From contig CASDXQ010000002.1 of the NCBI GenBank assembly GCA_949285145.1, positions 81,516 to 126,167 on the forward strand: a stretch of 44,652 nt of DNA, in the 5' to 3' direction. The notes beneath the pieces are model-generated. The model saw nothing but the letters and a program-made list of their open reading frames with translations, ran no database searches and was not told where the DNA came from. Positions 14,449-23,834 of the stretch are shown here, in pieces. Position 1 is the first letter of the stretch. Every line of letters begins with the position of its first letter. The translations under genes were made by a program, and so were the position numbers. The DNA comes from an uncultured Spirochaetales bacterium. Its GTDB lineage: Bacteria; Spirochaetota; Spirochaetia; Sphaerochaetales; Sphaerochaetaceae.

Positions 14449-16023
14449 TTACAAGAGGATATCAACATGAGGAAGATTATCAAAAACAGCACCATGAGTG
14501 ACAGCTATCACCAACCTTGATCGGGCTTCCTTTTCAACCAGATGTACCAAGGTTGATACTGAAGCTGTATCAAGGCCGGCATCCGCTTCATCCATAAGGA
14601 GAATGTCAGACTCACTGCACAACAAGCGGATCACAGCAACCTTCTTTTGCTGTCCGGTTGACAGATTCTCAACATTCAAAGTCTCCTCACCAAAGAAAGA
14701 AATCTTCAATTCATCATACAATGCGGTCTCAGCCGGCTTACCCATGAAAACATTATCCTCAAAGCAGGGACCAAAGAAAGCTGGCTTTTGCATCAGATAG
14801 GCAGGTTTTGCTACAGATTGGACAAGCACGGTTCCCTCAGATACATAGTCATCAGGGAAGAGACCTGCAAGCATGTTCAGGAGAGTCGTCTTACCAGCAC
14901 CATTACCGCCTTTAACAAGGTAGAGTCCCGGGCCATGGAAGGTATAAGAGAAATGATTTATCACATAGCTGGCATCCTTTGAATAAGAGAATGAGAAATC
15001 CCTGACTTCAATACAAGGTCCTCCTGTATTCTGATTCAAAGACCAGCAGACAGGATTGGTTTTACGGGTTGAAGCCTCCCTCACCCTTGATATTGCAACA
15101 AGAGCAATCATGGTCGTCTGGTAATAACTCCCGATGTTGACAAGTATATTCTTCAACTGACTTGTCAACATATGCATTGAGACGAAGTCTCCGACACTGA
15201 TCGCTCCGGAGATAACCATACGACCTAGTAACAGATAAACAACGATATTGGTGACCGCATTCACCAGATAAAGAAGCAGAGAAGAAGTTCCATTCAGCTT
15301 GACTGTGTCGACAACTACTGAGAAGCCCTGCCCAAGCACTCTTCCATAAAGTGAGGTGAAATGTCTTACAACAGCATTCTGGCTGATTTCTTTCTGCCCA
15401 TCGACATAACTGACAACAGTTTTGAGGTACTGATCCTGAAAAGCCCGGCTCTCAGCATTCAGTCTGGCCATAGGTTTGCTGTATAAAGCATTGATCAGTA
15501 TTGGAAACACAGACAACAGGACAGCCAATCCAAACAGTTTTCCATCTACACTCAGGAGCCGCATAGAAATAACTAAGATTGTGAAAATCATGACCAGCAG
15601 GTCAGGTATGCTAGCGGTGTAAAAATCAATCAATGATGATATATCGTCTAAAATAATGTTCTTAACCTTATCCCTGCCAAGTTCATCTGGAACATACATC
15701 TGCGAATCAAGGTATGTCTCAAGAAAACCAAGCTCTATCCTCCGTGTCACATGGTTGTTCCACCTTGTTCTCAGATAAGTCAGCAGGACAGAAACGGCAA
15801 GACCCAAAAAGAACAGCAACGAGAATGAGACCAGAAGGCGCAGGAAGTGATCCCATTCACCAGCTGTAAGATCATCTATCAACCAGCCGGAAAGCATGGG
15901 TTCCAAGGTATCAAGGTATTTAATTCCCATTGAGGCCATCATAAATGCGATATAAGGCAACAGATAGGGAGCAACCAGATTGAAGCCCCACTTCAAAGTG
16001 CTGGTTTTCTTATCAGCTTTCAT
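14449..16023 (-). CDS. ABC exporter, fused permease and ATPase (RiPP cluster)
   Basis: The 524-residue protein has an N-terminal exporter-type membrane domain (hydrophobic segments near residues 15-37, 60-82, 135-160, 165-185, 255-275 and 280-300) and a C-terminal ATPase with Walker A (VKGGNGAGKTTLLNML), signature NLSTGQQKKVAV and Walker B (DILLMDEADAGLD). The signature is STGQQ instead of LSGGQ, a common variant in peptide exporters. There is no N-terminal C39 peptidase, so it would not cleave a leader. It is the last gene of the cluster, overlapping the LolA-like gene by ATGA (16023-16020). By position it most likely exports the modified peptide or provides self-protection; a lipid or drug exporter role cannot be excluded. 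Confidence 0.85.
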   Translation of the reverse strand: MKADKKTSTLKWGFNLVAPYLLPYIAFMMASMGIKYLDTLEPMLSGWLIDDLTAGEWDHFLRLLVSFSLLFFLGLAVSVLLTYLRTRWNNHVTRRIELGFLETYLDSQMYVPDELGRDKVKNIILDDISSLIDFYTASIPDLLVMIFTILVISMRLLSVDGKLFGLAVLLSVFPILINALYSKPMARLNAESRAFQDQYLKTVVSYVDGQKEISQNAVVRHFTSLYGRVLGQGFSVVVDTVKLNGTSSLLLYLVNAVTNIVVYLLLGRMVISGAISVGDFVSMHMLTSQLKNILVNIGSYYQTTMIALVAISRVREASTRKTNPVCWSLNQNTGGPCIEVRDFSFSYSKDASYVINHFSYTFHGPGLYLVKGGNGAGKTTLLNMLAGLFPDDYVSEGTVLVQSVAKPAYLMQKPAFFGPCFEDNVFMGKPAETALYDELKISFFGEETLNVENLSTGQQKKVAVIRLLCSESDILLMDEADAGLDTASVSTLVHLVEKEARSRLVIAVTHGAVFDNLPHVDILL

Positions 16024-16793
16024 AATTCCAGGAGAATCTCCTGCTCAAAATACTCATCGGGAATGTACATGAGCCGGGGATCAACTATCTGGAAGTATCT
16101 GACCCGTCCGGGAAAAGACTGATTCCAGATCGAGTATGCCTTTTCAACATAAGTACCATCTTCCAGAGCCCAGTAATCCACATAGTCAATCCTCTGAGCC
16201 AGGACAGGATACTCAGCAAAGTAATCCTCCCTCACCCTGAGGCCTGTCTCACAGTCTATCCAGAAAATTGTGACAGACCTCCTGTTGTCATTGTGCATCT
16301 CAAGCTTCCAGCAGTTTCTGCCATTGAACTCCTCCACATGACAGTCGGCTATATTATATCCATCTTTCATCTTCAGGACATCATCGTCAGAAAATTCCAT
16401 GACAGAAGCCTTGCCGAATGTATGATAGATATTATCATCAAAGTTTGTCTTGTAATGAACCATTTCCCTGTCATAAAGAAAGTCATAGTCTTTCGATATG
16501 TCAGAAATCGTGGAGAACAATGAAACCTCAAGACGCCTGTAAAGAGAACCTTGTGCCCTCAGGTACTCAAGTTTCACTGTCTGAGCCCCATATTTCTCTT
16601 CAGGGCCGGACATATCGTCAGGAACGACAGAAACCCACTGAAGGAAAACAAGGTCCTTTTCAGAGTTTCTGAATGAACCTTGTTCAAGCGAATTCTGCAA
16701 GGCGTAGGCAAGTATGGCTTGTGGGTCTTCAGCAAAACAAACCCCGGCAAGCATCAAGATTATCAGGAGAAACAGAAAGAACCGTTTCTTCAT
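16020..16793 (-). CDS. LolA-like periplasmic (outer-membrane lipoprotein-sorting-type) protein
   Basis: 257 residues with a clear signal peptide (positively charged start, hydrophobic residues 5-20, cleavage after VCFA). The mature part is rich in alternating beta segments (TVKLEYLRAQGSLYRRLEV, CWKLEMHNDNRRSVTIFWID, GLRVREDYFAEYPVLAQRIDY). This fits the open beta-barrel fold shared by LolA/LolB and related outer-membrane lipoprotein-sorting proteins, which carry lipophilic ligands across the periplasm. It has ATGA overlaps with both neighbours: it follows two FtsX-type permeases and precedes the ABC exporter. Together with the LolD-like ATPase these genes resemble a LolCDE-LolA set dedicated to this cluster. 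The ligand (lipid, lipoprotein or the peptide product) is unknown; the fold assignment is by pattern only. Confidence 0.6.
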   Translation of the reverse strand: MKKRFFLFLLIILMLAGVCFAEDPQAILAYALQNSLEQGSFRNSEKDLVFLQWVSVVPDDMSGPEEKYGAQTVKLEYLRAQGSLYRRLEVSLFSTISDISKDYDFLYDREMVHYKTNFDDNIYHTFGKASVMEFSDDDVLKMKDGYNIADCHVEEFNGRNCWKLEMHNDNRRSVTIFWIDCETGLRVREDYFAEYPVLAQRIDYVDYWALEDGTYVEKAYSIWNQSFPGRVRYFQIVDPRLMYIPDEYFEQEILLEL

Positions 16794-17980
16794 TGTTTTC
16801 CCCTCCTTTCTGCAATCAGATCAGATAAGAGCACAACCACAAGATACAGTGCTGAATACAGTAAAAGCTGAGAGACAGGAAAAGGCATAAACAAATGACC
16901 GTCAACACAGTAGACATCAGTGAAATTAAGTCCGGTTTCAGCATCCAGCAGCATCGAAGGCCCGGGTATAAGTGAGACAAGGGAGCAGATTACAGCTGTC
17001 AGCACCCATGACACAGCTATTGGAATGATGGCTGTGATTAAACTCTCAAGCAGTCTGGTTTTTCTCACACAGGCCTTTGTCATACCCAGATTACGATAGA
17101 GAACATACTCATCCTTCCTTACAAAGAAAACGTGAACTGCAGAGAACAGCATCGCACAGATTGATATCAGGGCGAAGCCAGACAGAAGGACAAGGACATT
17201 AAGGCGTAAATCAGTCAGCATGGAGTAGCTTTCAAAAGTTGAGGGGGCCATCCTGCGCAGTATTTCATAAGGTGATGTGTTCATGGTAGTCAACACCATG
17301 AATTCAGGATGAGTGGACAATTCATTTATGAATGCTGAAACTTCATCTTGAGATGCCCCATGAAAATCGATGGTGATGTATGCCCTTTTCGCAGGGATCA
17401 TGAGACGGTTTGCATCACTGCGGCTTATCGCTATGTCATACATGAACGCCCGTGGGAATGGAATATAATCATCTGACTTCTTCAGCTCTGTATAGGACTG
17501 GTCTTTTCCCGCTACAAGATAAGCTGACTGGGGAAGAGCTGAAGATGGTTTTGCTGAGAAAACACCCTCTGGTATGGCATCGGAAACTATCAATGAAACC
17601 TGCTGTCCGGGCTCCATAAGATCCTCATATATGAAATATTCCTCGTTCTGGCCGTAGATGAAGGAATAAAGTTCATATGTACACTCCTCTGGAGAACTGA
17701 ATGAACTGGCAACTGCTTCATCGATATAATATTCAGTCATACGGGACAAGGCCGGCCTGTCTCCTGCCGCCATGCTGTTATCTTCCAGTGATGCAACAAG
17801 GACATCGCCTGAGAGTACCTGATCCTGCAGGAAGAATGAGAAAGCGTCATCAATCATTCCGGATAACAATCCCTCAATACTGACAGGAATAACTATTGAC
17901 AGTACGATGAGCATGTAAATCACGACATATGTTCTGAAATGTCTGAAATATATTTTCAGGAGGAGTTCAAGTCTTTTCAT
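16790..17980 (-). CDS. FtsX-type ABC permease, second subunit (RiPP cluster)
   Basis: The ATG at 17980 is chosen because GGGAGGAAGAG stands directly before it and it overlaps the upstream permease stop by ATGA; an upstream extension of the same frame looks like spurious Cys/His-rich translation. The 396-residue product has one N-terminal membrane segment (about residues 14-36, YVVIYMLIVLSIVIPVSIE), a large extracytoplasmic domain (about 40-265) and three C-terminal membrane segments (near 268-295, 315-338 and 372-390). This is the MacB/LolC/FtsX layout without the ATPase. It pairs with the preceding permease and with the ATPase at 21550-22224. Substrate unknown; likely the modified peptide, or lipoprotein/lipid handling linked to the LolA-like gene that follows. 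Confidence 0.8.
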   Translation of the reverse strand: MKRLELLLKIYFRHFRTYVVIYMLIVLSIVIPVSIEGLLSGMIDDAFSFFLQDQVLSGDVLVASLEDNSMAAGDRPALSRMTEYYIDEAVASSFSSPEECTYELYSFIYGQNEEYFIYEDLMEPGQQVSLIVSDAIPEGVFSAKPSSALPQSAYLVAGKDQSYTELKKSDDYIPFPRAFMYDIAISRSDANRLMIPAKRAYITIDFHGASQDEVSAFINELSTHPEFMVLTTMNTSPYEILRRMAPSTFESYSMLTDLRLNVLVLLSGFALISICAMLFSAVHVFFVRKDEYVLYRNLGMTKACVRKTRLLESLITAIIPIAVSWVLTAVICSLVSLIPGPSMLLDAETGLNFTDVYCVDGHLFMPFPVSQLLLYSALYLVVVLLSDLIAERRGKQ

Positions 17981-19353
17981 CTCTTCCTCCCTGCTTTCTT
18001 CAACATGCGAATGACAATAAGAACAGAAGTTCCCATGAAGACTGCCTGCATGGCTATGACAAAGATGACAGAACACAGGACATACTGGCTGGCAACCAGC
18101 ACCTGCCTGCATAAGATGCACATTAAACCACAGGCAAGGGCAGTCCCGATAAACGAAGGTACGGCTGCAATCATGCAAAGCTGGAGAAACAGGTCACGGA
18201 CTATCATCATCTTCTGTCGTCCCAGTATCGACAGCAGCTCAATGAGCCCTCTCTGGTTTTCAATCAGTACATTGACGCCGATCAAGCCAAGCACAATCGA
18301 ACCTGCAGACAGGATCAGCGACACGATTCTGCTTATCACAGTACTCATGTTATCCAAAGCAATCTTTTCATCTGTGAAGACGTTGTACATGCTTGAAACG
18401 ACCTTGTATGAGATACCTGTACCCATTGAGGAATACTCATCAAGAATATGCTGAATATCTGCCGCAACCTTGTCAGCTGAAGCTCCATCCTCCAAGCGCA
18501 CCATCAGCTCGTTAGAGAGCATCGGGGCTTCTATCACGTCATCCCCGGAAGGTTCAACACCCCAAAGCGGAGGGAATACAACCTCATCCAGGCTCTCAGG
18601 CGCCGTCGCATAACTCTTGTATTCATAATCCTTGCTCCAGAGTGCGCCCATGGCATCCTCGTTGAGGATGAATGCATCAATACTATAGCCGATCCCCTCC
18701 GGATCCTCGATCTGGTTATACTTTCCCAATGGTTTGTATGTGCCCCAGTAAACAAGATCCACAGTTTTTCCGGACGACCCTGAACTCACCTTCAGGGACA
18801 TCCCCTTCTCCATCTCTATTCCGTTTTCTGCAAGCCTTCTCACCGTGTTTTCACTGATAAGGACAGCATTTGGCGGAGCATCAGAGACACCAGGGAATGC
18901 AAGATGCTCAGCATGTTCATAGAATTCATTGAGCTTGGAGAAATCCTCTCCTACATGGCGGCCTGTGTATAGCAATTCCTGATGGCCCAATGAAAGGTGG
19001 ACACCAAAGCTTCCCAGCGTGATCTGACGCTTCAGGACAGCTTCAACCCCGTCAACTGATGCAATCCTCTCATAAAAGACAGGGTCGACAGGCAGATAGA
19101 AGATGTTTGTGGATTCTTCAATCAGTGCCCCCGCCCACATATCCGGACTGTCAATCAGACCATGTTCCTCACTGTCTACAAGTATAATGAGTTCGCCATA
19201 GACTTCCTTACGGTCCAGCTCCACTCTGTTGGCATATGGATATATGCAATCCGGCAGGATGCACACGCACAGGAAAGAGACCCCTGCGAACATCAATGCC
19301 AGGGTGATGCATATGAGTTTATTCTGACGCAGTCCGATCAGAGCAAGTTTCAT
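17977..19353 (-). CDS. FtsX-type ABC permease, first subunit (RiPP cluster)
   Basis: 458 residues with the MacB/LolC layout: an N-terminal membrane segment (about residues 13-35, ICITLALMFAGVSFLCVCIL), a large extracytoplasmic domain of about 300 residues, and three C-terminal membrane segments (about 340-362, 392-414 and 420-447). The gene begins only 3 bases after the stop of the third precursor peptide and has no Shine-Dalgarno sequence of its own, so its translation is probably coupled to that of the precursor. It overlaps the next permease by ATGA. With its partner and the LolD/MacB-type ATPase it should form a heterodimeric type VII ABC transporter. These systems either pull substrates out of the inner membrane or drive efflux from the periplasm. 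Confidence 0.82.
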   Translation of the reverse strand: MKLALIGLRQNKLICITLALMFAGVSFLCVCILPDCIYPYANRVELDRKEVYGELIILVDSEEHGLIDSPDMWAGALIEESTNIFYLPVDPVFYERIASVDGVEAVLKRQITLGSFGVHLSLGHQELLYTGRHVGEDFSKLNEFYEHAEHLAFPGVSDAPPNAVLISENTVRRLAENGIEMEKGMSLKVSSGSSGKTVDLVYWGTYKPLGKYNQIEDPEGIGYSIDAFILNEDAMGALWSKDYEYKSYATAPESLDEVVFPPLWGVEPSGDDVIEAPMLSNELMVRLEDGASADKVAADIQHILDEYSSMGTGISYKVVSSMYNVFTDEKIALDNMSTVISRIVSLILSAGSIVLGLIGVNVLIENQRGLIELLSILGRQKMMIVRDLFLQLCMIAAVPSFIGTALACGLMCILCRQVLVASQYVLCSVIFVIAMQAVFMGTSVLIVIRMLKKAGRKR

Positions 19354-19356
19354 ATA

Positions 19357-19620
19357 TTAATAAACTGTTGAACTTGAACCACATGTTGCAGTGCAGTCAG
19401 ATGTACAGCCAACTGAACATCCTTCTGAGCAAACAGATGAACAACTGGTACCAGCACAACCTGAAGAGCATGACGTTCCACTACATCCTGTTGCGCAAGA
19501 AACACCTGAACAACCAGACCCGCAGCCAGGATCACAAGAAACAAAACAAAATCTCTTCTCAATACCAGGATCTGATGTATTCAATCGTTCAATTGATTTC
19601 TTAAGTTTTGTAATATCCAT
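19357..19620 (-). CDS. Cys-rich RiPP precursor peptide 3 (14 Cys)
   Basis: 87 residues. A short charged leader (MDITKLKKSIERLNTSDPG) is followed by a core of about 63 residues that is nearly all Cys, Ser, Gly and Thr. Cys occur at residues 25, 29, 33, 37, 42, 46, 51, 55, 60, 64, 68, 72, 76 and 80, so every neighbouring pair is spaced X3 or X4. The core ends CGSSSTVY. The leader start MD(I/V)xxLK is shared with the other two precursors. AGGAGGAACGT precedes the ATG. The neighbouring radical SAM maturase suggests thioether formation (sactipeptide or ranthipeptide class). No GG or AxA cleavage site is obvious. A metal-binding protein is the alternative, but three tandem paralogues beside a maturase argue for a RiPP. 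Confidence 0.85.
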   Translation of the reverse strand: MDITKLKKSIERLNTSDPGIEKRFCFVSCDPGCGSGCSGVSCATGCSGTSCSSGCAGTSCSSVCSEGCSVGCTSDCTATCGSSSTVY

Positions 19621-19633
19621 ACGTTCCTCCTAG

Positions 19634-19825
19634 TCACCAAGACGACATACTGACGCCGCAACCATTCGGACATCCCTCAGAACATTGAACAGGACATCCA
19701 CTTGAACAAACTGAGTAACAATTGCCACTGCTGCAATTACTGGAACATGAAATACATATCCCTTGAGTCTTTATAGCCGATGCACCAACATCCTCAATGA
19801 TATTTTTCAGTCTTTTCACATCCAT
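19634..19825 (-). CDS. Cys-rich RiPP precursor peptide 2 (9 Cys)
   Basis: 63 residues. The leader MDVKRLKNIIEDVGASAIKT is followed by a core with Cys at 24, 27, 31, 36, 40, 44, 48, 52 and 56, mostly spaced X3. Residues between the Cys are Ser, Gly, Asn, Pro and acidic or aliphatic residues (SSGCPVQCSEGCPNGC), and the tail is GVSMSSW. It shares the MD(I/V)xxLK leader start and the spacing rule with precursors 1 and 3 but not the core sequence, so the three are diverged paralogues. GGGAGATATGTC precedes the ATG. It lies 13 bases before precursor 3 and 35 bases after precursor 1. Expected to be modified by the adjacent radical SAM enzyme. Confidence 0.85.
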   Translation of the reverse strand: MDVKRLKNIIEDVGASAIKTQGICISCSSNCSSGNCYSVCSSGCPVQCSEGCPNGCGVSMSSW

Positions 19826-19860
19826 GACATATCTCCCATTACGGACTATTCAGATGTTAG

Positions 19861-20067
19861 TCATCTGCGGCTTTCCCTGATATTCGAACCAGGAGCGTAA
19901 CACGATGACGAACAACCAGTAGAAGAGCACCCCGATGCACACGAGCTAGGACAACCTGACTGGCAAGACGTAGTACAACTGGTTACATTACATGATTCAT
20001 CACCTCCTAACCTGTCGTCAAATTTTCCTTGACGAGTGATTTGTTCTTTCAGTTTTTCAATATCCAT
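19861..20067 (-). CDS. Cys-rich RiPP precursor peptide 1 (8 Cys)
   Basis: 68 residues. The leader MDIEKLKEQITRQGKFDDRLGG ends in a double Gly at 21-22, a possible processing site, although the cluster exporter has no C39 peptidase domain. The core carries Cys at 26, 31, 35, 39, 43, 47, 52 and 56, spaced X3 or X4 and separated mainly by Ser, Gly and Thr. Unlike the others it has a polar basic tail (YAPGSNIRESRR). AAAAAGGGGGACAGAT precedes the ATG. It starts 16 bases after the maturase gene ends, the usual maturase-to-precursor proximity in radical-SAM RiPP loci. Function is inferred from context and composition, not from a recognised peptide family. Confidence 0.85.
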   Translation of the reverse strand: MDIEKLKEQITRQGKFDDRLGGDESCNVTSCTTSCQSGCPSSCASGCSSTGCSSSCYAPGSNIRESRR

Positions 20068-20083
20068 ATCTGTCCCCCTTTTT

Positions 20084-21553
20084 CTACAAGATTCTTATTG
20101 GCCCGTATTCGGCCATTGGACATTTGTAATCTGGTTCATAGACATCACCGAGATACTCACGGCAAAATCGCAGGCACCTGCTGTATATTTCATGACAGTA
20201 CTTGTAATACTCATCGGGGCAGGTCTTACATGCACAACCATCGTGAAAAATATTTCTGTCTGGAGCAGACAGCCAGGCCTTCATTTTCTTACCATTCCAT
20301 ACCTTGTAAAGATCCTGGGTTCTGAAATCCCCAAGAACATAACGCGGATCATATGGTAGATGCTCACAAATAAATGCTTCTCCATTAGGCATAATCAGAA
20401 GGGAAAAACGGCCGGCATTGCAGATGACACGGTCTTTCATCATTTCCTTAAAGTCAACGCAATCCGTTCTTTTATGCTCTGAGTATGTAATCTGATAACC
20501 GCCACCAACCAAATCAACATCAGCATGCTCTTTCCGCCATGTCTCGATTACAGATGAAACTGAATCCAATTGCTCCTGAGTGGCGAAGAGTTCGTCATCA
20601 TGGCGATATCCGCTACGGCCATACCCGACAACCTGAATATGCTTGATACCCAGTTCAACACACTTATCAAGATAATCGCTGATGCATCCAGCATTAATAC
20701 TAGTAAGTACAGCTTTGATACGAACATCCATATCGATGCTCTGCATATACTTGATCATATTGACAATCTTGTCCACGTAACCAGGTCCGACACCAATCAA
20801 TTTCTGCTCAACCTCATCATCAAAGCTGTCAAGGCTAATCTGAATGCGGTCAAGGCCAGCTCTGTCATAAAGCTTTTTTATTCTCTCATTTGATAGTACG
20901 CTTTTGGTGGACAGTGTGTAGAAAACACCATGCTTATGGATAAGTTCCATGACATCATCGATGTCTGGGCGCAACATGGGATCTCCTCCTGTAAGCAACA
21001 CACTTTCAACTCCTGCTTTCTTCAAATCTGAGAAGAGGACATCAAGCCGATCAAGCGAGATGTAATCGTCTACAGGTACCAGTGGGTGATAACAATAGCG
21101 ACATGAAAAACCACAACGTGTAGACACATTGAAATTTACAGACAGAGGTGCTTCAAGACGCAGGTTCCGTGGATCCAGGAAAACCTGGTCAGAAGGAATC
21201 AGATAATCTTCCGGATTGAAACGGTTACGGATCTTTTCTATCTTTGCCTCATCATACTTTTTTACTGGTACAAGGAACTCATAGTCATGAAGCTGGGGCC
21301 CAAGCAATGACAATGCCTGTTCAACATCAAGTTCAGCGTTGTCAAACAGGAACTCGAAATCACGTTTGACATCTGCAAAAGACCTGGTTCCATCAAATAG
21401 CAGAAGAAAGATCACATCCTGAGGATGAATAACAGAAACATTATCCGGAGCATAGAAGAAGTCATCTACAGTGTAGAACAGGCACCTATGACTTTCCTTC
21501 CTGAACCTCACCTCATCAGAGAGTATATACCTGATATCATCTCTGTATTTCAT
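20084..21553 (-). CDS. Radical SAM/SPASM peptide maturase with N-terminal RiPP recognition domain
   Basis: 489 residues. Residues about 10-90 resemble the PqqD-like RiPP recognition element (VRFRKESHRCLFY, then HPQDVIFLLLFDGTRSFADVKRDF), expected to bind the precursor leaders. The radical SAM core has the CX3CX2C cluster at C147, C151 and C154 (CGFSCRYCYHP) and a GGDP loop (LTGGDPMLRPD). The C-terminal SPASM domain, about 375-475, is Cys-rich (VICNAGRF, FICEHLP, CACKTCPDEYYKYCHEIYSRCLRFC) and should hold auxiliary Fe-S clusters, as in sactipeptide and ranthipeptide synthases. The ATG overlaps the ATPase stop by ATGA, and three Cys-array precursors follow. The likely reaction is formation of Cys thioether crosslinks in those peptides; the residue and carbon attacked cannot be read from sequence. 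Confidence 0.9.
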   Translation of the reverse strand: MKYRDDIRYILSDEVRFRKESHRCLFYTVDDFFYAPDNVSVIHPQDVIFLLLFDGTRSFADVKRDFEFLFDNAELDVEQALSLLGPQLHDYEFLVPVKKYDEAKIEKIRNRFNPEDYLIPSDQVFLDPRNLRLEAPLSVNFNVSTRCGFSCRYCYHPLVPVDDYISLDRLDVLFSDLKKAGVESVLLTGGDPMLRPDIDDVMELIHKHGVFYTLSTKSVLSNERIKKLYDRAGLDRIQISLDSFDDEVEQKLIGVGPGYVDKIVNMIKYMQSIDMDVRIKAVLTSINAGCISDYLDKCVELGIKHIQVVGYGRSGYRHDDELFATQEQLDSVSSVIETWRKEHADVDLVGGGYQITYSEHKRTDCVDFKEMMKDRVICNAGRFSLLIMPNGEAFICEHLPYDPRYVLGDFRTQDLYKVWNGKKMKAWLSAPDRNIFHDGCACKTCPDEYYKYCHEIYSRCLRFCREYLGDVYEPDYKCPMAEYGPIRIL

Positions 21554-22224
21554 CCTGCAATCCTCCCATCTTCAAGCCTGATTCTGTCACCAATAGAATC
21601 GACAATTCTTTTATCATGTGTCGCAACTATGCAAATTGAGCAGAGTTCCCTGTTCAATTCCTCAAGCAGGGACATGATGTCTTCAGCTGTAGCAGAATCC
21701 AGACTGGCAGTCGGTTCATCTGCCAGAATAATCGATGGCTTCTTCACAAGAGCCCTGGCAATGGCGACACGCTGTTGCTGACCTCCGGAAAGCTCACCGG
21801 GGCGATGATGACGTCTGTCTGAAAGACCGACACGTTCCATAATTGCCTCAGTGTCCTTCTCAAGCTTCTTCCTGTCTGCCCGTCTGCCCCCTCCTGCGAC
21901 AGCGCCGAGGAGGATATTCTCAAACACATCCAGAACAGGTATCAGCCTGAACTGCTGAAAAATGTAACCTACATTGCTGAAACGGTAAGCAGATGCTTCC
22001 TTGTCAGATGTGTTGACTATGCTCCTGCCATCAAGCTTTATATCCCCGGATGTGGGGACATCTGTCGCAGCAATGAGATTCAGCAATGTGCTTTTGCCAG
22101 AACCACTGGGCCCTGATACAACTGTCATGGAACCATTGCGGAAAGTATATGAGAAACCACTGAGGGCATGAACAATATTATCGCCCATCTCATAGATCCT
22201 GCTTACATCAACAAGCTCCAGCAC
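21550..22224 (-). CDS. ABC transporter ATPase, LolD/MacB type (RiPP cluster)
   Basis: 224 residues with Walker A ([16 protein letters not shown]), Q-loop (YIFQQFRLIPVLDVFENI), signature LSGGQQQRVAIARAL, Walker B (IILADEPTASLDS) and the H-loop His (IVATHDKR). The sequence is typical of the LolD/MacB/FtsE-like ATPases that work with FtsX-type permeases, so its partners are probably the two permeases at 16790-19353, encoded beyond the maturase and precursors of the same operon. The start is a GTG at 22224 with GGAGG seven bases before it. A TTGACA and a near-palindrome lie in the 86-base gap upstream, where the regulator may act. It ends in an ATGA overlap with the maturase. Confidence 0.92.
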   Translation of the reverse strand: MLELVDVSRIYEMGDNIVHALSGFSYTFRNGSMTVVSGPSGSGKSTLLNLIAATDVPTSGDIKLDGRSIVNTSDKEASAYRFSNVGYIFQQFRLIPVLDVFENILLGAVAGGGRRADRKKLEKDTEAIMERVGLSDRRHHRPGELSGGQQQRVAIARALVKKPSIILADEPTASLDSATAEDIMSLLEELNRELCSICIVATHDKRIVDSIGDRIRLEDGRIAG

Positions 22225-22251
22225 AGCTTACCTCCATGTGTTTTAAGTCTC

Positions 22252-22274
22252 ACTCCCAGCTGGAGGTATGTCAA
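22252..22274 (-). promoter_or_regulatory. Candidate promoter element and operator for the RiPP operon
   Basis: On the minus strand a perfect TTGACA (22274-22269) is followed at once by ACCTCCAGCTGGGAGT (22267-22252), a 16-bp sequence that is palindromic apart from pyrimidine/purine exchanges. No good -10 box lies at normal spacing, as expected for an activator-dependent promoter. The LuxR-type regulator gene ends 37 bases upstream, making it a candidate target. Confidence 0.4.
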
Positions 22275-22310
22275 ATAAACTTATGATATTTTTCTATTAT
22301 GAAAAAAATT

Positions 22311-23306
22311 CTAAACTGAAGTTTCTCCAAAAAACTCAAGGATTTTTACAAGCAGGCTGGCTCTGGAAGGAACATTCAGTTTTTTCATAATGACATGGAG
22401 TCTGTTTTTGATCGTGGCCTCATTTGTGTTGAGCTCAAAGGCAATCTCACGATTCGCCTTGCCGCCTTTTGACAAAAAGAACGATGACAATATCCTGTAA
22501 TCCACATCTCTCAGCCCTTCCAGTTCAGGAAACCTTCTCAACTCCTCATCGACAGACTCCTGTGTCAGTCTGATCAGGTTGTTCCGGCTGGAATACGTAG
22601 TGATATTATTCTTGATTTCTTCCCTCAACCTGCTGTTCTCTTCCTCCAGATCACTTACTTTCTTCTGGAGTTCCGACATACTGACTTTCCCATCATACAT
22701 CCCTTCATCAGCCGACGATTCTATCTGAATACTCTTCAGTTCCTCATCTTTCATCATGAGAGTCTCCTCCAGCGTAACCAGACGTTCTTCATTTGAAATC
22801 ATTTTCTTTATGAGATTCCGTGTGATAAAAGCAAGGAAGAAGAAAACACAACAAAAGTAAATCAGGCATCCTATAAGAATCCATTCGTTATCATGAATAA
22901 GGCTGCTGACTGTTGCAACAAAGACGAACGAGAGGATGAACAATGCCGTTTTTATCCAGAATCCCTTCTGGAACTGTTCATAATACCACCCCATAAGAAT
23001 AAACAGTAGAAGAAAACCCCACGCATAGAAATCACTGCTTCCATTATAAATAAAGCATACATATGACATTGCCAGCATGCATATGGTCTGAAGAGAAACA
23101 GCCCATCTGTATTCTAATAATGTAATCAGAGAAACAGCAAGGAATACCCCCATTATACCAAAATACCAGGCTTCACGGATCCCAAAACCATCCAGTCCCG
23201 TTTCGATATATTTCGTTATGAAGCTAAGAAGCATGGTGAGTGCAATGAAAAAAGCAAATACACTACCAATAACAACCTGGGTAAAGCGTTTCTCGTAATT
23301 AAACAT
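22311..23306 (-). CDS. Membrane-anchored LuxR-type transcriptional regulator
   Basis: 331 residues. The first 170 contain about six hydrophobic segments (beginning FTQVVIGSVFAFFIALTML and ending IGCLIYFCCVFFFLAFI). A coiled coil of about 70 residues follows (ERLVTLEETLMMKDEEL to LEEENSRLREEI), and then a C-terminal helix-turn-helix of GerE/LuxR type (LRDVDYRILSSFFLSKGG...NREIAFELNTNEATIKNRLHVIMKKLNV, near 262-325). There is no receiver domain, so the signal is probably sensed in or through the membrane. It lies 86 bases before the operon with the maturase and precursors and 6 bases after a gene of unknown function. The likely role is to switch the RiPP operon on or off; the ligand is unknown. 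Confidence 0.8.
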   Translation of the reverse strand: MFNYEKRFTQVVIGSVFAFFIALTMLLSFITKYIETGLDGFGIREAWYFGIMGVFLAVSLITLLEYRWAVSLQTICMLAMSYVCFIYNGSSDFYAWGFLLLFILMGWYYEQFQKGFWIKTALFILSFVFVATVSSLIHDNEWILIGCLIYFCCVFFFLAFITRNLIKKMISNEERLVTLEETLMMKDEELKSIQIESSADEGMYDGKVSMSELQKKVSDLEEENSRLREEIKNNITTYSSRNNLIRLTQESVDEELRRFPELEGLRDVDYRILSSFFLSKGGKANREIAFELNTNEATIKNRLHVIMKKLNVPSRASLLVKILEFFGETSV

Positions 23307-23312
23307 TTTCAG

Positions 23313-23834
23313 TCATGCTCCTTCCCAGAAACCGCGATTCATAACAATATCCAACGGAAAATCCATGTCCAGCCCCTCTGTCCTCATACATGCAGCTTGT
23401 TTTATCAGCTCGTCCCTTATTCTGTTATATTCCCATGCTCCGGATACCACCGGATTGTATTTTCCAGTTCTGATGTCTGCTTCGCTGTCTGTCATATGAT
23501 CCTGTATCATTATGAGTTCAAGCAGGATACGCCCCTTGTCAATCACAGCCTGGTTTCCAGATGGAACGATATAGAGGAGACTGATACGGGAAAAGAGATC
23601 ACAATCATCCTCCGGCTGATGGTTAAAGTATTTCCGTGCACCTTCACAGGCATAGAGGAAATAGTTGTTGATACAGGCAACAGCCACACGCATAGGGTTG
23701 CTGCTGCCTGCATAAAATGGAACCGATGCGAGAATCTGAAGAACTAAATTGTCCCTCTGTCTTTCCACAATGTCCCCACCCCAGATACCAGCCATGATTC
23801 TCAGCACTTCTTCATATTCTTCATTGAATTTCAT
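23313..23834 (-). CDS. Protein of unknown function, first gene of the RiPP cluster
   Basis: I do not recognise this 173-residue protein. It has no signal peptide or clear membrane segment and looks like a soluble, mainly helical protein (for example EEYEEVLRIMAGIWGG, VACINNYFLYACEGARKYF, ISLLYIVPSGNQAVIDKGRILLELIMIQDHM). It contains several Cys (residues near 53, 63, 78 and 150) but no metal motif. It ends 6 bases before the LuxR-type regulator gene, so the two are probably co-transcribed and it may modulate that regulator or sense the inducing condition. No good Shine-Dalgarno sequence precedes the ATG; a weak TTTAAG-17-TATAAA promoter-like pair lies 30-60 bases upstream. Confidence 0.6.
   Translation of the reverse strand: MKFNEEYEEVLRIMAGIWGGDIVERQRDNLVLQILASVPFYAGSSNPMRVAVACINNYFLYACEGARKYFNHQPEDDCDLFSRISLLYIVPSGNQAVIDKGRILLELIMIQDHMTDSEADIRTGKYNPVVSGAWEYNRIRDELIKQAACMRTEGLDMDFPLDIVMNRGFWEGA

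Follow-up and report, generated by a model that had tools for sequence, protein, structure and literature searches.

A putative radical-SAM RiPP operon with Cys-array precursors and a Lol-like pump set in an uncultured spirochaete

Why would a double-membrane bacterium encode a radical-SAM enzyme and several Cys-rich peptides in one operon with a transport set that resembles LolCDE and LolA? The question is raised by a 44,652-nucleotide stretch of DNA from an uncultured Spirochaetales bacterium (contig CASDXQ010000002.1; the window), in which positions 14449-23834 carry eleven intact genes in the list of open reading frames, all on the minus strand. An earlier note on this DNA had described ten genes in one direction; the direction stands, and the number is eleven. 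The first gene of the cassette (23313..23834) codes for a protein of 173 aa to which no function is assigned and which has no Pfam match over cut-off. It lies 6 nt ahead of a membrane LuxR-type regulator (22311..23306; PF00196, 28.6 bits against a cut-off of 23.5), in which hydropathy and Pfam predict at least five TM segments, a coiled coil and a GerE helix-turn-helix. These are followed by an ABC ATPase, the maturase, three Cys-array precursors, two permeases, a LolA-like secreted protein and an ABC exporter. Four ATGA overlaps connect the ATPase with the maturase, permease 1 with permease 2 (the true start of the latter being at 17980), permease 2 with the LolA-like protein, and the LolA-like protein with the exporter. 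The remaining junctions are gaps of 6, 16, 35, 13 and 3 nt and one of 86 nt between regulator and ATPase, in agreement with the earlier description of most junctions as ATGA overlaps or very short gaps. Rfam and tRNA scans of the window gave no matches, a promoter scan remained at chance level, and 11 terminator-like sites were found in the window compared to 7.4 expected.

The three precursors comprise 68 aa with 8 Cys (19861..20067), 63 aa with 9 Cys (19634..19825) and 87 aa with 14 Cys (19357..19620), each characterized by its open reading frame, its leader pattern, a gap shuffle and a profile match (for precursor 1, itself one row of the profile, E=5e-7). The spacing of the cysteines is very regular: 27 of the 28 Cys-Cys gaps measure 3 or 4 residues, a number attained in none of 20,000 within-core shuffles (best, 15), so that the three Cys arrays previously proposed are borne out. 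Of the 31 Cys residues, 22 directly follow a Gly or a Ser. All three peptides share the leader M-D-[IV]-x-x-L-K-x-x-I. The pattern M-x-[LIV]-x-x-L-K-x-x-[IV] matches 11 of 811 small open reading frames in nine loci, and ten of the 11 are Cys-array peptides adjoining this maturase family; because the pattern was composed after the peptides had been seen, this figure is descriptive and carries no predictive weight. L056:9769-9978, however, one of the ten, came to light only after the pattern had been fixed, and a profile search retrieved it too. Among the 120 residues of the cores there are only four acidic residues (2 Asp, 2 Glu), one Phe and one Tyr, and since the cores offer so few classical acceptors, any assignment of the crosslink type is a guess.

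The maturase (489 aa, 20084..21553) contains radical-SAM (PF04055, 79.7 bits) and SPASM (PF13186, 37.4 bits) domains, both over cut-off, with a CX3CX2C motif at Cys147/151/154 and seven conserved auxiliary Cys residues (positions 378, 396, 442, 445, 453, 460 and 478). The motif and all of the auxiliary-cluster cysteines are invariant across four homologues, and the protein thus has the features by which radical-SAM/SPASM enzymes are recognized. None of the NCBIfam equivalogs fits it, the top score being that of PqqE (97 bits against a cut-off of 381). A viperin identity (PADLOC pVip, 70.5 bits) was considered and rejected, as the score reflects the common radical-SAM core. The earlier note had also called the maturase RRE-containing; this part of its description is suggestive only, as the profile matches are weak. 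TIGR03859 reaches E=0.024 in one of four family members, and the N-terminus aligns collinearly with PqqD/MftB by hhalign, but at a probability of 4% (E=0.0095). A moderate AF2 model built from four sequences (pLDDT 58.5) retrieved SuiB as the top fold match (Z 17.4, rmsd 6.1 over 291 residues, model residues 23-474), a ranking that alone proves little because RRE-less radical-SAM enzymes score within 1 Z unit. We regard the N-terminal domain as a probable RRE.

At E<=1e-30 the maturase has no homologue in the 138 further genomes covered from its own family. The only close homologue in the phylum sample (47% identity) occurs in a dolphin-mouth Treponema MAG (G474) of the same class as the window genome, and a family search of 274 genomes added a goat-rumen MAG (G521); both maturases are 46-47% identical to that of the window over their full length. 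The complete dolphin-mouth locus (L056) encodes four Cys-array open reading frames, the maturase, two small secreted-looking proteins and a homologous exporter. The rumen locus (L057) encodes five Cys-array open reading frames, the maturase and one small secreted-looking protein, after which the contig ends. Same-leader Cys-array peptides thus accompany the maturase in the window and in two further spirochaete MAGs (three, four and five in the window, G474 and G521, respectively), and this amounts to a conserved precursor-maturase core: small precursors with a leader and a modifiable core adjoin the enzyme and are conserved with it, except at one paralogue. The co-occurrence expected by the earlier note was accordingly found in two other genomes but not at this 40%-identical paralogue in G521 (L058), which has several ABC exporters nearby and no adjoining Cys peptides, a situation that the note had named as contrary evidence. 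In the same region (L058:5129-15673, contig C91) the exporters stand in a row, with near-identical ATPase halves and differing membrane halves, interleaved with the solo maturase and a maturase C-terminal fragment.

Several further features of these and more distant loci were recorded. The third precursor of the rumen locus (L057:8432-8725) has its leader and Cys array in different frames (a one-base frameshift or an assembly error), and the first of the dolphin-mouth locus (L056:8226-8513) has an apparent ATA start after a good ribosome-binding site. The small secreted or lipoprotein-like proteins of both loci (L056:9086-9646, L056:11466-12047 and L057:11062-11604; about 170-185 aa) are similar in appearance, and could possibly be immunity or periplasmic factors. 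Another genome (G454) retains a maturase remnant of 74 aa. A distant relative (28.7%) is a frameshifted maturase on the Paenibacillus peoriae plasmid NZ_CP011513.1, directly upstream of which are two small Cys-rich peptides with CxxC/CxxxC arrays (L033:11535-13421). A search of genome contigs and viral contigs with the single maturase sequence gave no matches; the four-row alignment retrieved the two spirochaete MAGs, a weak planctomycete match, one weak viral-contig match and nothing else. On rhizobial plasmids, conserved peptides of about 80 aa that end in GCDSCTVCPCMICW (L034:9626-9874 and L035:9598-9834) precede two radical-SAM genes, an arrangement that looks like a separate RiPP.

The Lol-like set consists of the ATPase (21550..22224), permease 1 (458 aa, 17977..19353), permease 2 (396 aa, 16790..17980) and the LolA-like protein (257 aa, 16020..16793). 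The ATPase matches PF00005 (123 bits), and its top NCBIfam match is LolD (TIGR02211, 201 bits against a cut-off of 308). By hydropathy, both permeases show the layout of LolC/E and MacB, with one TM segment, a loop of 230-310 aa and three TM segments; in permease 1 the loop between TM1 and TM2-4 has about 310 aa. Permease 2 matches FtsX (PF02687) at 21.7 bits in the protein scan (cut-off 25.5) and at 25.3-26 bits in a genome search, and for permease 1 the genome search gave 13.6 bits and the protein scan no FtsX match. A PDB search with permease 2 returned only chance matches. The LolA-like protein begins with a signal segment, its single hydrophobic segment spanning residues 5-23, and matches LolA_like (PF17131) at 28.5 bits, against a cut-off of 30; its AF2 model, made without an alignment, has a pLDDT of 38, too low to give a usable fold. 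The set therefore has the composition of a type VII (MacB/LolCDE-like) ABC transporter, to which permease 1 is assigned by topology and gene context only. As for the Lol names given to these genes earlier, the ATPase class and the permease topology agree with them, but neither the LolD nor the LolA-family curated cut-off is reached. PF03548 (LolA) has no match in the bacterium's own genome (96% complete), in which the cassette's protein is the sole PF17131 match. The same genome contains a second ATPase/two-permease cassette with a secreted protein of 316 aa (L054:6208-10068, contig C21).

The pairing of the maturase with a Lol-like set had been put forward as a feature of the system. As a conserved trait of the family it is not supported: the complete dolphin-mouth locus has no LolD-, FtsX- or LolA-like genes, and none are seen in the rumen locus up to the contig end. 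Among the loci compared, the pump was seen only in this genus, in which it is not a one-off, as a sister species retains a decayed ATPase at the same site. The cassette borders, at about 14.0-14.4 kb and 23.97 kb, coincide with the edges of absence in the sister genomes. In one of these (G015) the flanks are 92-97% identical and enclose about 2.2 kb of unrelated DNA in place of the cassette, which was either lost or never present. In the other (G013) most of the cassette is missing through one deletion that joins two sites sharing TCTTCAAG, and only the ATPase gene remains, 93% identical in DNA but broken by stops and a frameshift. Because this remnant occupies the same site, the cassette predates the species split, with the pump gene already in position; the genome comparison thus indicates that the cassette is old and has been lost at least once. 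A recent horizontal island is not supported, given the same remnant and a GC content (42-47%) only mildly below that of the flanks. In G013 the Lon-type protease gene adjoining the cassette is also broken by stops and frameshifts, beside the ATPase pseudogene (L071:1-3223).

The last gene (14449..16023) codes for a single-chain ABC exporter with a TM domain (PF00664) and an ATPase (PF00005), 24% identical over its full length to the exporter of the dolphin-mouth locus (E=1e-49). No C39 peptidase domain was found in the exporter, and no protease in the cassette. We favor, with a probability of roughly 0.6, the reading that the cassette is a RiPP-type operon combining RRE/leader-guided radical-SAM modification, single-chain export and a lineage-specific MacB/LolCDE-type pump for protection or handling. 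The shared leader would be bound by the N-terminal, probably RRE, domain of the maturase, and the enzyme would modify the Cys/Ser/Gly array, the most likely products being thioethers that join Cys to carbons in the backbone or side chains of neighboring Ser, Gly or Thr. Moving the product from the cytoplasm would fall to the exporter, with the protease for the leader either absent or encoded elsewhere, and the LuxR-type regulator would control the cassette. As the complete relative locus encodes an exporter but lacks a Lol-like set, we assign export to the single-chain protein, and self-protection or periplasmic peptide handling to the pump and its periplasmic LolA-like partner. This division of roles is one that we infer from the comparison, and the role of the Lol-like set is proposed from resemblance; for the pump, self-protection or handling appears more likely than lipoprotein sorting.

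The position of the LolD-type ATPase, two permeases of LolC/E topology and a periplasmic LolA-like protein in one operon of overlapping genes, in a genome with no other LolA-family match, would also suit delivery to the outer envelope, as the earlier note suggested, by a dedicated system in which the mature peptide is extracted from the inner membrane in the manner of LolCDE and carried to the outer membrane by the LolA-like protein. We consider this rather unlikely: in the complete relative locus, precursors, maturase and exporter occur without a Lol-like set, none of the three peptides carries a lipobox, and a self-protection pump takes fewer assumptions. That a LolCDE/LolA-type periplasmic shuttle was recruited to carry a radical-SAM-modified Cys-array peptide to the outer membrane seems improbable to us, and we know of no RiPP that takes such a route. 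Conversely, the set could be housekeeping lipoprotein-sorting machinery that neighbors the RiPP genes by chance, as the lack of PF03548 and of a second PF17131 match might suggest. This is highly improbable, and we rejected it: searches of 392 other Spirochaetota genomes at E<=1e-6 gave no homologue of permease 1 or of the LolA-like protein (plasmid searches with both were likewise without matches), a sister species does without the set, of which only the decayed ATPase is left, and the genes of the set overlap and interleave with those of the maturase and precursors.

The Cys arrays themselves allow another interpretation, in which the peptides bind or store metal and their modification serves chelation instead of producing an antibiotic or signal. 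Their very regular C-x3-C spacing, with 8-14 Cys per peptide, is like that of thiol metal sites generally. Against this, a common leader, several paralogous precursors by a SPASM maturase and an exporter form the usual layout of a RiPP locus, and no metal-transport or metal-sensing gene was recognized in the cassette; we therefore regard a metal-related function as unlikely.

The RiPP-type operon was compared with known systems. Like SuiB and other RRE-SPASM enzymes, the maturase has a radical-SAM core, a SPASM domain and, in the fold alignment, an N-terminus aligned to the RRE end of SuiB; unlike them, its substrates are Cys arrays, and the identity is 17-18%. Streptide, the product of SuiB, contains a Lys-Trp crosslink. 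Going by its name, the ACGX system (NCBIfam TIGR04340) would have a Cys repeat of four residues, as in the C-x3-C of the cassette; the maturase scores 46.8 bits with this model, against a cut-off of 400. With the ranthipeptides (SCIFF, freyrasin/PapB) and sactipeptides, the cassette shares a Cys-rich precursor and a SPASM radical-SAM enzyme. Freyrasin has the same repeated C-x3 spacing, and PapB joins Cys to Asp/Glu within CX3D motifs (PMC9413430), whereas the cores of the cassette are almost free of these residues, and its PapB score is 46 bits against a cut-off of 340. The darobactin cluster darABCDE, a radical-SAM RiPP locus of Gram-negative bacteria, includes an ABC system, DarBCD, that is dispensable for production (PMC9055067); the cassette ATPase scores 168 bits with the darobactin ATPase model (cut-off 375), and the precursor is a different one. 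The set resembles LolCDE-LolA and the MacB/BceAB/LanFEG-type pumps in ATPase class, permease topology and LolA-like periplasmic protein, and differs from LolCDE-LolA in that no component passes a Lol cut-off and the cassette has no lipoprotein substrate.

In the open-access literature (subscription papers lying mostly outside this scope), we found neither a spirochaete radical-SAM RiPP nor a RiPP with a LolCDE/LolA set. A 2014 survey of anaerobes recorded four LAP-type RiPP clusters (Brachyspira), the only ones from its 21 spirochaete genomes (PMC4289311). The view that this is an apparently undescribed radical-SAM RiPP system in a spirochaete is thus upheld, by the literature as by the lack of an equivalog family. 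On the sequence data, it is best read as a new radical-SAM RiPP variant in which a LolCDE-like pump, specific to the lineage, accompanies a conserved pairing of precursors and maturase, and since its very regular Cys arrays have almost no classical acceptors, its chemistry could be new as well. Precursors and maturase would form a compact family in which each locus carries several Cys arrays, and the LolCDE-like pump would make it possible to test how a producer with two membranes tolerates or moves a RiPP.
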